This document shows, piece by piece, positions 23,311-26,396 of a stretch of DNA of 64,000 bases. How positions within the stretch are numbered: position 1 is the first letter of the stretch; each line of letters begins with the position of its first letter. Under the pieces are notes generated by a model. It was not told the origin of the DNA, ran no database searches, and saw only the letters and a program-made list of their open reading frames with translations. Origin of the DNA: Natrinema ejinorense (GTDB taxonomy: Archaea; Halobacteriota; Halobacteria; Halobacteriales; Natrialbaceae); assembly GCF_002494345.1 (NCBI RefSeq), contig NZ_NXNI01000001.1, forward strand, positions 992,001 to 1,056,000, given 5' to 3'. The translations under genes were made by a program, and so were the position numbers.

Positions 23311-23761
23311 TGTCGTGCCCGTGTGTCTCCGGCGGACCGACAAAAGTGTACGGTTGTACTCGGATACTGCGACGTGTTCGAACACATGCCGGATTCGAAA
23401 CCGTGACAGTCCGTTGCGTGGCGCGAAACGGAGCCATCATCCACGTACTGTCAGGATCGGCGGTCGAAGACGGGGTCGCCGCCGCTCCGGACACGGAGAC
23501 GACCGTCCCTTACATGCACATTCACAGAGAGTTTTCTCGAGAATGAAACCATACATTCCGATTTCGAGCGTTCTATTCCGCCCAGGGCGAGGATATACCA
23601 GAGGGATAATTATGACGACCTGATTATGAAAGCGTAGGGAAAGACGTAGTATGTCGTTGACCGATCCGTGGTAGTGTGCTTCCCGATGGCGTCGACCGGG
23701 CGGACTCGCGGTGCCACCATCCACCGCAACCTTTGTACCGTCAGCATCAGTGCCATCCGAC
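23311..23761. other. Divergent promoter region between malic enzyme and rdfA
   Basis: About 450 bp without a supported gene. It includes AT-rich tracts around 23575-23635 (TATACCAGAGGGATAATTATG) suitable for promoters. Short frames on both strands here read as shadows. No repeats or IS ends seen. Confidence 0.5.
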
Positions 23762-24388
23762 ATGGCAGACAACGCGAGTGGTGGGCGACGAACGAAGGTC
23801 GAGCGAGTGATGGCCGAGTACGACCTCGAGGAGTGGGGGGATCGGCTGGAGGCCGAGTGGATCGGCGACGGAACGGAGCGAACGAGCCTCCGGGACCTCG
23901 CGACGGAGTTCAATCAGGCAGTGCTCCGCGCGGCGGTTCACGACGCGGGCCCGTCCACGCTCGATACGGACATCGAATCCCTCTATCGGACGCTGACCGA
24001 CGACGACGCGTCGCGATCCGACGCGGTTCGGAAACGGCGCGATCTCGAGCGTTCCGGAGTCGACATCGACGACGTCACGTCGGACTTCGTTACGCACCAG
24101 ACCGTGTATACGTATCTCACGAACGTTCGCGACGCCTCCCTTCCCGAGGAAGACAGCGACGACCGCGTCGAACGGAAAAAAGAGACCGTCCAGCGACTCG
24201 CCGGCCGAACGCAGGTTATTACCGAATCCACGCTCGAGGAACTGAGCAATGCCGACGAGATCACGGACCGAAATTACGAGGTCTTCGTCGACGTCAGAAC
24301 CATCTGTGGAAACTGCGGGGCCGACTATCCGATCGCCGACCTCCTCGATCAGGGCGGCTGTGACTGTGAGGCCGACGACGGGGCGTAA
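23762..24388 (+). CDS. rdfA: Rod-determining factor RdfA
   Basis: Haloarchaea-specific protein; its Haloferax volcanii namesake is needed to form rod-shaped cells. The 208-residue product has an opening MADNASGGRRTKVERVMAEYDLEEWG region (residues 1-26, key features basic RRTK then DLEEWGDRLEAEW), a middle helical part with RRDLERSGVDIDDV, and a C-terminal zinc-ribbon-like cluster CGNCGADYP...CDC (residues about 182-202). ATG 23762 gives the family N-terminus. It is followed 64 bp downstream by the SMC-like gene, the same pairing known from other haloarchaea. It is probably a DNA- or protein-binding regulator; the biochemical role is unproven. Confidence 0.88.
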   Translation: MADNASGGRRTKVERVMAEYDLEEWGDRLEAEWIGDGTERTSLRDLATEFNQAVLRAAVHDAGPSTLDTDIESLYRTLTDDDASRSDAVRKRRDLERSGVDIDDVTSDFVTHQTVYTYLTNVRDASLPEEDSDDRVERKKETVQRLAGRTQVITESTLEELSNADEITDRNYEVFVDVRTICGNCGADYPIADLLDQGGCDCEADDGA

Positions 24389-24423
24389 CGTCCGAGTCGG
24401 AAAACCGCCGTAACCAAATAGCA

Positions 24424-24429
24424 TTTATA
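24424..24429 (+). promoter_or_regulatory. TATA box of the SMC-like gene (leaderless GTG start)
   Basis: TTTATA in GCATTTATAG is centred 26 nt before the GTG at 24453. It supports that GTG as the start and gives the SMC-like gene a promoter of its own within the 64-bp gap after rdfA. Confidence 0.6.
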
Positions 24430-24452
24430 GCCAGCGGCGAGAACTATTCGTC

Positions 24453-26396
24453 GTGTCATCTCCAGAGTCAGTCACCTCGCCGATTACCGTCCAGGCGGAG
24501 AACATCGGCGGTATCGATACAACCGAGGTACTGCTACAGCCCGGTGTAAACGTTCTGACTGGCCGGAATGCGACGAACCGAACGTCGTTCCTCCAGACGA
24601 TTATGGCGGCCCTGGGCAGCCGACGGTCGTCGCTGAAAGGCGACGCGGACGCCGGTCACGTCGAACTGACGTTCGACGACGAGCAGTACACACGATACCT
24701 CGAGCGGCGAAACGGCGAAATCGTCTTCGACGGCGATCCCTATCTCGACGACCCGGAGCTCGCGGATCTCTTCGCGTTCCTGCTCGAATCCAACGAGGCA
24801 CGTCGGGCGGTACGACGCGGCGACGACCTCCGTGAACTCATCATGCGGCCGATCGATACGGACGAGATCGAAGCGGAGATCGAAGCGCTCGAGGCGGAAA
24901 AACGCGAGTTAGACGACCGCCTCGAGGAACTCTCGCGGCTCGATACCGAACTTCCCGATCTCGAGGAAGAGCGCGTCACGCTCGAGAGCGAGATCGCAGC
25001 CACGAACGAGCGAATCGCCGAGCTCGAGAACGAACTCGACGACTTCGATCTCGACGTGGACGCGAGTCGCGCTCGAAAAGCGGAGATAGAGTCCGCCTTC
25101 GCCGACCTCCAGGACGCCCGGACGGAACTCGAGTCAATCGAGTACGACCTCGAGACCGAACGGGAGAGCTACGCCGAACTCGAGCGAGAGCGCGACGAAC
25201 TCGAGGCCGAACTCGAGGCGTTCGACGATCCACAGGAGTCGCCGGACCGACTCGAGGGACGAGTACAGGAGCTTCGATCGCGGAAACGGTCGCTCGATAC
25301 GACCGTCAGCGAACTCCAGAGCGTGATCCGGTTCAACGAGGAACGGCTCGCCGACGGCGGGCTCGACCTCGAGGCGTCCGCCGAGTCGAGCGACGACGAC
25401 GATATTACCGAGCAGCTCCTCACGGAGTCGACCGACGTCGTCTGCTGGACGTGTGGCTCGCAGGTCGAGCGCGACCGAATCGAATCGACGCTGGATCGGT
25501 TGCGGTCGCTTCGACAGGAAAAGCTCGACGAACGCAGCGACCTGCAAGAACGGATCGACGAGCTCTCCGACCGCCGAAAGGAACTCCGCCAGCAAGCACA
25601 GAACCGGGGGCAGATCGAAACGCGACTCGCGGCGATCGATGACGAACTCGAGCGACGGGCAACGCGGATCGACGAACTCGAGGCCGAACTCGACGACCAA
25701 CAGGAACGCGTCGACGAACTCGAATCGGACGCCGAGACGTTCGAGAACGCGGAGTACGGCGACGTCATCGAGACGCACCGCGAACTGAATCGACTCGAAC
25801 TCGAGCGCGAGGATCTCGAGGACGAACGCGACGAGGTCCAGGCTCGAATCGACGAGATCGACGGGCGAATCGAGGAACGGAGCGAACTCGAGGATCGGCG
25901 TGGAACCGTCGAAGACGAGTTAACCGATCTCAGGACGCGAGTCGATCGGATCGAGGAAACGGCCGTCGACGCGTTCAACGAGCACATGGACTCGATCCTG
26001 TCGATCCTCGAGTATCGAAACATCGACCGCATCTGGATAGAACGGCGCGAGAAAACGGTTCGCGAGGGGCGTCGAAAGGTCACGCGGACGGCGTTCGACC
26101 TGCACATCGTCCGGACGACCGAGGAGGGACGGACCTACGAGGACACCGTCGATCATCTCTCGGAGAGCGAACGCGAAGTGACGGGGCTCGTCTTCGCGCT
26201 TGCGGGCTATCTGGTCCACGACGTTCACGAAGTCGTGCCGTTCATGCTGCTCGATTCGCTCGAAGCGATCGATTCGAACCGAATCGCCGATCTCGTCGAT
26301 TACTTCGAGGAGTACGTCGACTGCCTCGTCGTCGCGCTCCTCCGTGAGGACGCCGAAGCACTCTCGGACGCGTACACGTACGTTCAGGAGATTTGA
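24453..26396 (+). CDS. Archaea-specific SMC-related protein (Sph-type) partnered with RdfA
   Basis: A 647-residue coiled-coil ATPase-like protein with Rad50/SMC layout. It has an N-terminal head with a P-loop-like GRNATNRTS at 37-45, a long heptad-rich coiled coil (about 110-540), a zinc-hook-like CWTC near 331-334, and a C-terminal head with signature-like HLSESEREVTGL and Walker-B-like MLLDSLEAID (598-607). The P-loop lacks the usual GKS/T (NRTS replaces it) and the Walker-B DE pair is DS, so ATP use may be altered. Related Sph genes next to rdfA act in cell-shape control in Haloferax. Translation starts at GTG, 26 bp after a TATA box. Confidence 0.88.
   Translation: MSSPESVTSPITVQAENIGGIDTTEVLLQPGVNVLTGRNATNRTSFLQTIMAALGSRRSSLKGDADAGHVELTFDDEQYTRYLERRNGEIVFDGDPYLDDPELADLFAFLLESNEARRAVRRGDDLRELIMRPIDTDEIEAEIEALEAEKRELDDRLEELSRLDTELPDLEEERVTLESEIAATNERIAELENELDDFDLDVDASRARKAEIESAFADLQDARTELESIEYDLETERESYAELERERDELEAELEAFDDPQESPDRLEGRVQELRSRKRSLDTTVSELQSVIRFNEERLADGGLDLEASAESSDDDDITEQLLTESTDVVCWTCGSQVERDRIESTLDRLRSLRQEKLDERSDLQERIDELSDRRKELRQQAQNRGQIETRLAAIDDELERRATRIDELEAELDDQQERVDELESDAETFENAEYGDVIETHRELNRLELEREDLEDERDEVQARIDEIDGRIEERSELEDRRGTVEDELTDLRTRVDRIEETAVDAFNEHMDSILSILEYRNIDRIWIERREKTVREGRRKVTRTAFDLHIVRTTEEGRTYEDTVDHLSESEREVTGLVFALAGYLVHDVHEVVPFMLLDSLEAIDSNRIADLVDYFEEYVDCLVVALLREDAEALSDAYTYVQEI

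Follow-up and report, generated by a model that had tools for sequence, protein, structure and literature searches.

The locus analyzed here raises the question of what an SMC-like protein does with a head whose ATP site lacks the canonical motifs. The window (the whole 64,000-nucleotide stretch of DNA that was analyzed) lies on a haloarchaeal genome made up of a 3.99 Mb chromosome and a 416 kb contig. It carries two same-strand genes with a 64 bp gap between them: rdfA (23762..24388, +), which has an ATG start and encodes a 208 aa protein of the rod-determining factor A family (Pfam PF21811, 252.7 bits against a cut-off of 27), and sph (24453..26396, +), which has a GTG start and encodes a 647 aa archaea-specific SMC-related protein (ASRP). 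The pair's neighbors are a gene for a malic enzyme/phosphotransacetylase fusion and, at the opposite end, one for an ABC transporter, and we saw no ddfA-like gene adjoining the window sph. A second RdfA-Sph pair is present on the 416 kb contig, its Sph being 54% identical to the window Sph.

A sequence-only reading of this DNA had placed both genes in the correct frames and at the correct coordinates, and had proposed that sph possesses its own leaderless promoter. This proposal is supported by a TATA-like box, TTTATA (24424..24429, +), located about 27 nt 5' of the GTG codon within a block, AACCAAATARCATTTA, that is kept in near orthologues. The rdfA gene also has such a box, TTTGTA (23732..23737, +), centered about 27 nt 5' of its ATG, and a TTTGTA-type stretch was seen 5' of rdfA in near relatives through the translation of their upstream sequence. 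The boxes of both genes fit leaderless transcripts. A block running from GTAACCAAATARCATTTA to AGCGGCGAGAA before sph (window 24405-24445), which extends beyond the TATA box, is kept in close relatives and may be a candidate regulator site.

Membership of the window Sph in the ASRP family was claimed from profile and tree only. The protein matches NCBIfam NF045487 at 691.3 bits (cut-off 300) over profile positions 1-593 of 593; the haloarchaeal ASRPs form one clade (starred in the tree), and the window Sph falls on its Sph2-4 side, together with H. salinarum Sph2. An ASRP was present in 342 of 391 genomes. Broken copies occur in close relatives, at G017:C37:70436-72245 (two adjacent fragments), L010:3929-5870 (two frames) and G016:C1:755639-757401; some of these are probably pseudogenes or assembly errors. 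A viral origin was rejected as not supported, since no close Sph homologues were found in phage records and viral contigs.

The predicted head-coil-hook-coil-head layout was borne out by the secondary structure of an AF2 model, in which the order of strands, coils and hook is as expected, and by the best PDB matches of that model, which are two-lobed Rad50/SMC heads (Z 12.9-11, residues 11-647), including heads bound to ATP-gamma-S. The hook is a CxxC motif, C331-W-T-C334 (25443..25454, +), both of whose cysteines are invariant in an alignment of ASRPs, and it lies between the two coiled coils seen in the model. Mean pLDDT was 72, with only 30-50 in the P-loop region, and the input alignments were shallow; a model with so weak a P-loop gives no ligand contacts.

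Neither canonical Walker motif is present in the window Sph, where GRNATNRTS and LLDS (within LLDSLEAID) replace GK[ST] and DE. The sequence-only reading had recognized both absences, which are real; the P-loop is not, however, unrelated to Walker A, being a Walker A loop in which Asn has taken the place of G42 and Arg that of K43 (G37-RNATNRT-S45; 24561..24587, +), with G37, N39, T44 and S45 kept. The Walker B/D-loop segment, FMLLD601-S602-L-E604-A-I-D607 (26241..26273, +), has a serine at the position of the catalytic Glu. Both residues expected of a working ATPase in the SMC superfamily, the Walker A Lys and the catalytic Glu, are thus missing (Arg43 and Ser602). The LSESER signature segment (residues 569-574; 26157..26174, +) was correctly reported as present and is no leftover, LS-x-SE being the usual form in outgroup ASRPs too (LS[TKE]SE). 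The published H. salinarum Sph2 also lacks the canonical Walker A and B motifs (GRNATGRTS and LLDS), so those motifs do not define haloarchaeal Sph proteins. As a control, the SMC protein of the same genome has the P-loop GPNGSGKS, and its Rad50 has GVNGSGKS, LSGGE and LDEPT.

We scored residues 41-43, 602 and 604 from one alignment of 182 ASRPs (172 haloarchaeal and 10 from elsewhere in the phylum) drawn from genome, contig and plasmid records. A catalytic Glu at position 602 was found in none of the 172 haloarchaeal proteins; the finding that would have refuted the sequence-only interpretation, normal GKS/DE motifs in most homologues, thus did not come about. The haloarchaeal proteins fell into an R43/S602/E604 group (111, including the window Sph, its paralogue and H. 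salinarum Sph2), a K43/A602/E604 group (30), a group with K43, S or T at 602 and G604 (10) and an Sph1-type group (21) with GK, G/R/D602 and G/S604; as a Lys pattern had been used to retrieve 40 of the loci, these counts and the share of K43 are not frequencies or measures of prevalence. Among the outgroup ASRPs, GK[ST] was present in 10 of 10 and DE in seven of 10. In the literature searched we found no mention of missing motifs in Sph proteins or ASRPs, and no biochemical work on the ATPase of any Sph protein. The class-wide alteration of the ATP site, within a known kind of module, is real, and we found no earlier report of it.

The altered residues are strongly conserved. Among 50 R-type proteins of less than 66% identity, mean entropy was 0.16 bits in the P-loop, compared with 1.37 over the remainder of the head and 2.02 in the coils. 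G37, N39, A40, T41, R43, S45, K62, S570, E571, E573, D601, S602, E604 and D607 were invariant in this set, and R43 is encoded by five different Arg codons across homologues. R43 was paired with S602 and E604 in 111 of 111 proteins, and K43 combined with E604 was paired with A602 in 30 of 30. In a tree from which the motif columns had been excluded, the K43/A602 proteins fall into two distinct clades that lie among the R43/S602 proteins, and a constraint placing them in a single clade was rejected (AU p=0.0013, 40-row subset). Positions 43 and 602 have therefore changed together twice independently, on supported branches; with only two events, this is consistent evidence that carries no formal significance test. 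The joint occurrence of R43 and S602 is far beyond chance. In the heads of ABC and SMC proteins, the P-loop ATPase positions equivalent to 43 and 602 lie opposite one another at the gamma phosphate, so the covariation suggests a contact between the two across the ATP site. We read the Sph ATP site as remade and still under selection, not as decayed.

The cysteine cluster that had been noticed at the C terminus of RdfA is present as CGNC...GCDC (C182, C185, C200 and C202; 24305..24367, +) and is a probable zinc site; C182, C185 and C200 are kept in 105-106 of 113 aligned RdfA rows and C202 in 83 of 113. We found rdfA in the flanks of at least about 99 of 107 haloarchaeal sph loci, a lower bound given the short flanks, and high adjacency of the two genes has already been published (PMC10869688). 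RdfA and Sph distances were correlated (r=0.88 for 61 pairs; r=0.83 when only the R43 type is considered; uncorrected for shared species history), and across paralogues the RdfAs sort by the type of their partner. The RdfAs next to Sph1-type proteins form one branch, as do those next to K43/G604 proteins. This co-divergence of RdfA with its Sph partner is new here. An AF2 model of RdfA, made from seven close sequences, reached a pLDDT of 60, and with this weak model PDB matches did not exceed Z 4.4 and the lowest Foldseek E-value was 1.9; scattered matches to HTH domains were not trusted. An unusual amplification of the module was seen on a 1.6 Mb replicon (G023:C2), which has at least 10 ASRP genes, the majority accompanied by an RdfA of their own.

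Three genomes that we call Methanosarcina-like, a label inferred from a published tree (PMC9389158) in which they are the sister group of Sph, have an RdfA relative directly 3' of a canonical-motif ASRP. These relatives scored 35.4, 26.3 and 22.0 bits against PF21811 (cut-off 27) and matched in a profile comparison at 97.5% (E 6e-12). Since they adjoin ASRPs with canonical motifs, the RdfA-ASRP pair is older than the loss of the catalytic residues and older than the haloarchaea. At these loci a third gene follows the ASRP and the RdfA relative (L066:4594-5112, +; L068:837-1358, -; L070:606-1130, -). It encodes a protein of about 174 aa with a PF14947 winged helix in two of the three cases and a C-terminal part resembling a further winged helix, much as in the KITE subunits of SMC complexes; the protein may be the counterpart of a KITE subunit. 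Two further RdfA relatives, in another lineage of the phylum, have no adjoining ASRP (L146:1529-2113, -; L147:3776-4468, -); they match PF21811 at 53.6 and 47.1 bits and begin with a CKLC motif. Downstream of other outgroup ASRPs lie genes of a different family, for zinc-ribbon-like proteins of about 270-335 aa (L072:1013-1960, -; L073:936-1940, -; L067:3925-4725, +), with a P-loop ATPase gene upstream at L072 and L073. These zinc-ribbon neighbors of distant outgroup ASRPs were considered as RdfA relatives and rejected, having no profile similarity.

The usual ATP-splitting residues are replaced by a conserved, different set, and haloarchaeal Sph is therefore probably not an ordinary ATP-driven SMC motor. 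The reading we favor, to which we give a probability of roughly 0.45, is that Sph is a nucleotide-responsive zinc-hook clamp in which ATP hydrolysis is impaired or absent. Loss of the catalytic Glu leads to loss of hydrolysis in established ABC and SMC enzymology. Sph would be a Rad50/SMC-type protein dimerized through its zinc hook, descended from a normal ATPase with GKT and DE in the common ancestor with the Methanosarcina-like ASRPs. The catalytic Glu would have been lost first, at or before the base of the haloarchaeal ASRPs; on the Sph2-4 side, the largest clade, K43 would then have been replaced by Arg and E604 gained, with two later returns to Lys, each accompanied by Ala602, as N39, S45, K62, S570, D601 and D607 were held constant. 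This order is read from a tree with SH-aLRT values from a short search and several long outgroup branches, and its deepest part is uncertain. The head would most likely still recognize a nucleotide or another phosphate ligand that holds two heads together and is hydrolyzed very slowly or not at all, making Sph a static or regulated clamp or tether in place of an ATP-driven loop extruder. RdfA would be the co-evolving partner that supplies regulation. What the analysis shows is the motif changes with their conservation and covariation, the fold class of the head and the co-divergence with RdfA; nucleotide binding without hydrolysis, engagement of the heads, direct contact with RdfA and a route from the module to rod shape or gene conversion are what we infer within this reading. 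Tentatively, and with clearly less conviction, we suggest that a class-wide, hydrolysis-free and RdfA-dependent clamp arose from an ATP-driven ASRP complex whose canonical form, comprising ASRP, RdfA relative and winged-helix protein, survives in methanogens.

In other P-loop proteins, replacement of the Lys by Arg together with Gly by Asn often abolishes binding, so nucleotide binding by Sph may be lost too. The alternative that we consider possible and place second is a structural pseudo-ATPase: a salt-bridge and hydrogen-bond network of R43, S602 and E604 would fill the nucleotide site, no nucleotide would bind, the head or head dimer would be locked in one conformation and Sph would serve as a coiled-coil scaffold or filament. 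Covariation of residues 43, 602 and 604 fits a direct contact of Arg with Glu and Ser as well as it fits ligand binding, neither of the canonical chemical residues is left, and published discussion favors a cytoskeletal-like role for the SMC-like proteins of cell shape (PMC10869688). However, the signature serine, K62 and D607 are invariant and their equivalents in the superfamily touch the nucleotide or the opposite head, and the return of two clades to Lys43 is not favored by an inert site. The sequence-only reading had offered a structural head as one option; in the sense of a relic, at least, this option loses weight, since few parts of the protein are as well conserved as the altered loop, which in addition covaries with residue 602.

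An active, non-canonical ATPase, with Arg43 standing in for the P-loop Lys and E604, two residues on, acting as a relocated catalytic base, seems unlikely to us. E604 is invariant in both the R43 and the K43/A602 proteins, and most outgroup ASRPs lack it and have E602 instead. Nevertheless, position 604 lies in the D-loop region, away from the usual water-activating site, and neither the ten proteins with K43, S602(T) and G604 nor any member of the Sph1 clade has an acid at these two positions (602 and 604), apart from one D602 in Sph1, indicating that the family tolerates the lack of both. That the gene is decaying and has lost its motifs by drift, or was mis-sequenced, is highly improbable: broken ASRP copies do occur elsewhere (the adjacent fragments in G017 and the two-frame copy in L010), but the 647-aa frame is intact here, the copy in a same-species genome (L046) is near-identical, and the altered residues rank with the best conserved of the protein and have diverse synonymous codons, so that conservation across the class contradicts drift.

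The module has been tested genetically in Haloferax. There, rod shape, swarming and gene conversion all require Sph proteins, and a joint deletion of Sph2 and Sph4 is not possible (PMC10869688, PMC11276520); loss of Sph3 abolishes rods (PMC10869688), and all four Sph proteins are needed for gene conversion (PMC11276520). The requirement of RdfA for rod shape is published for Haloferax volcanii HVO_2174 only. Loci with the order rdfA-sph-HalOD1 gene match the published rdfA-sph3-ddfA order, and we took their genus as Haloferax, since its Sph shares 79% identity with a plasmid protein of Haloferax gibbonsii. The Sph of these loci has GRNATNRTS and LDSVEAID, so the rod-forming Sph3 probably has no canonical ATP site either, and judging by family, all four Haloferax Sph proteins are expected to be without the catalytic Glu. 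The label of cell-shape pair previously given to the window genes is right for the family; for the window pair itself, whose Sph has no more than about 48% identity to the Sph3-type proteins of Haloferax, a shape role is only a possibility.

If the heads do not hydrolyze ATP, models of SMC-type motors do not apply to this module, which becomes a natural test of a motor-less SMC-like clamp. The three covarying residues (43, 602 and 604) and the partner gene are precise targets for mutation, and the methanogen loci give the canonical form for direct comparison.

Among known systems, Sph3/RdfA of Haloferax volcanii (PMC10869688) resembles the window pair in its adjoining same-strand rdfA and sph genes; another Haloferax Sph is 50% identical to the window protein. 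With the ASRPs (Halobacterium Sph1 and Sph2 and coalescin ClsN; PMC9389158), the window Sph shares a profile, the zinc hook and the coil layout, although the family paper gives Walker A and B as present and the window Sph has Asn/Arg and Ser instead. Rad50 is similar in its zinc hook and two-lobed head and provides the best structural matches (Z ~12.9), but GVNGSGKS, LSGGE and LDEPT, all retained in this genome's own Rad50, are absent from Sph. Arcadin-4, a crenactin-associated SMC-like protein, has a link to archaeal cell shape, known to us from the literature only, and groups with Rad50, not with the ASRPs, in the published tree (PMC9389158). SMCL-1 of Caenorhabditis elegans is also SMC-like and without the ATP-hydrolysis residues, and it has been argued to bind but not hydrolyze ATP and to act without hydrolysis (PMC5373644). 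Unlike Sph, SMCL-1 keeps Walker A, is without coils and hinge, and is a lineage-specific regulator of condensin.
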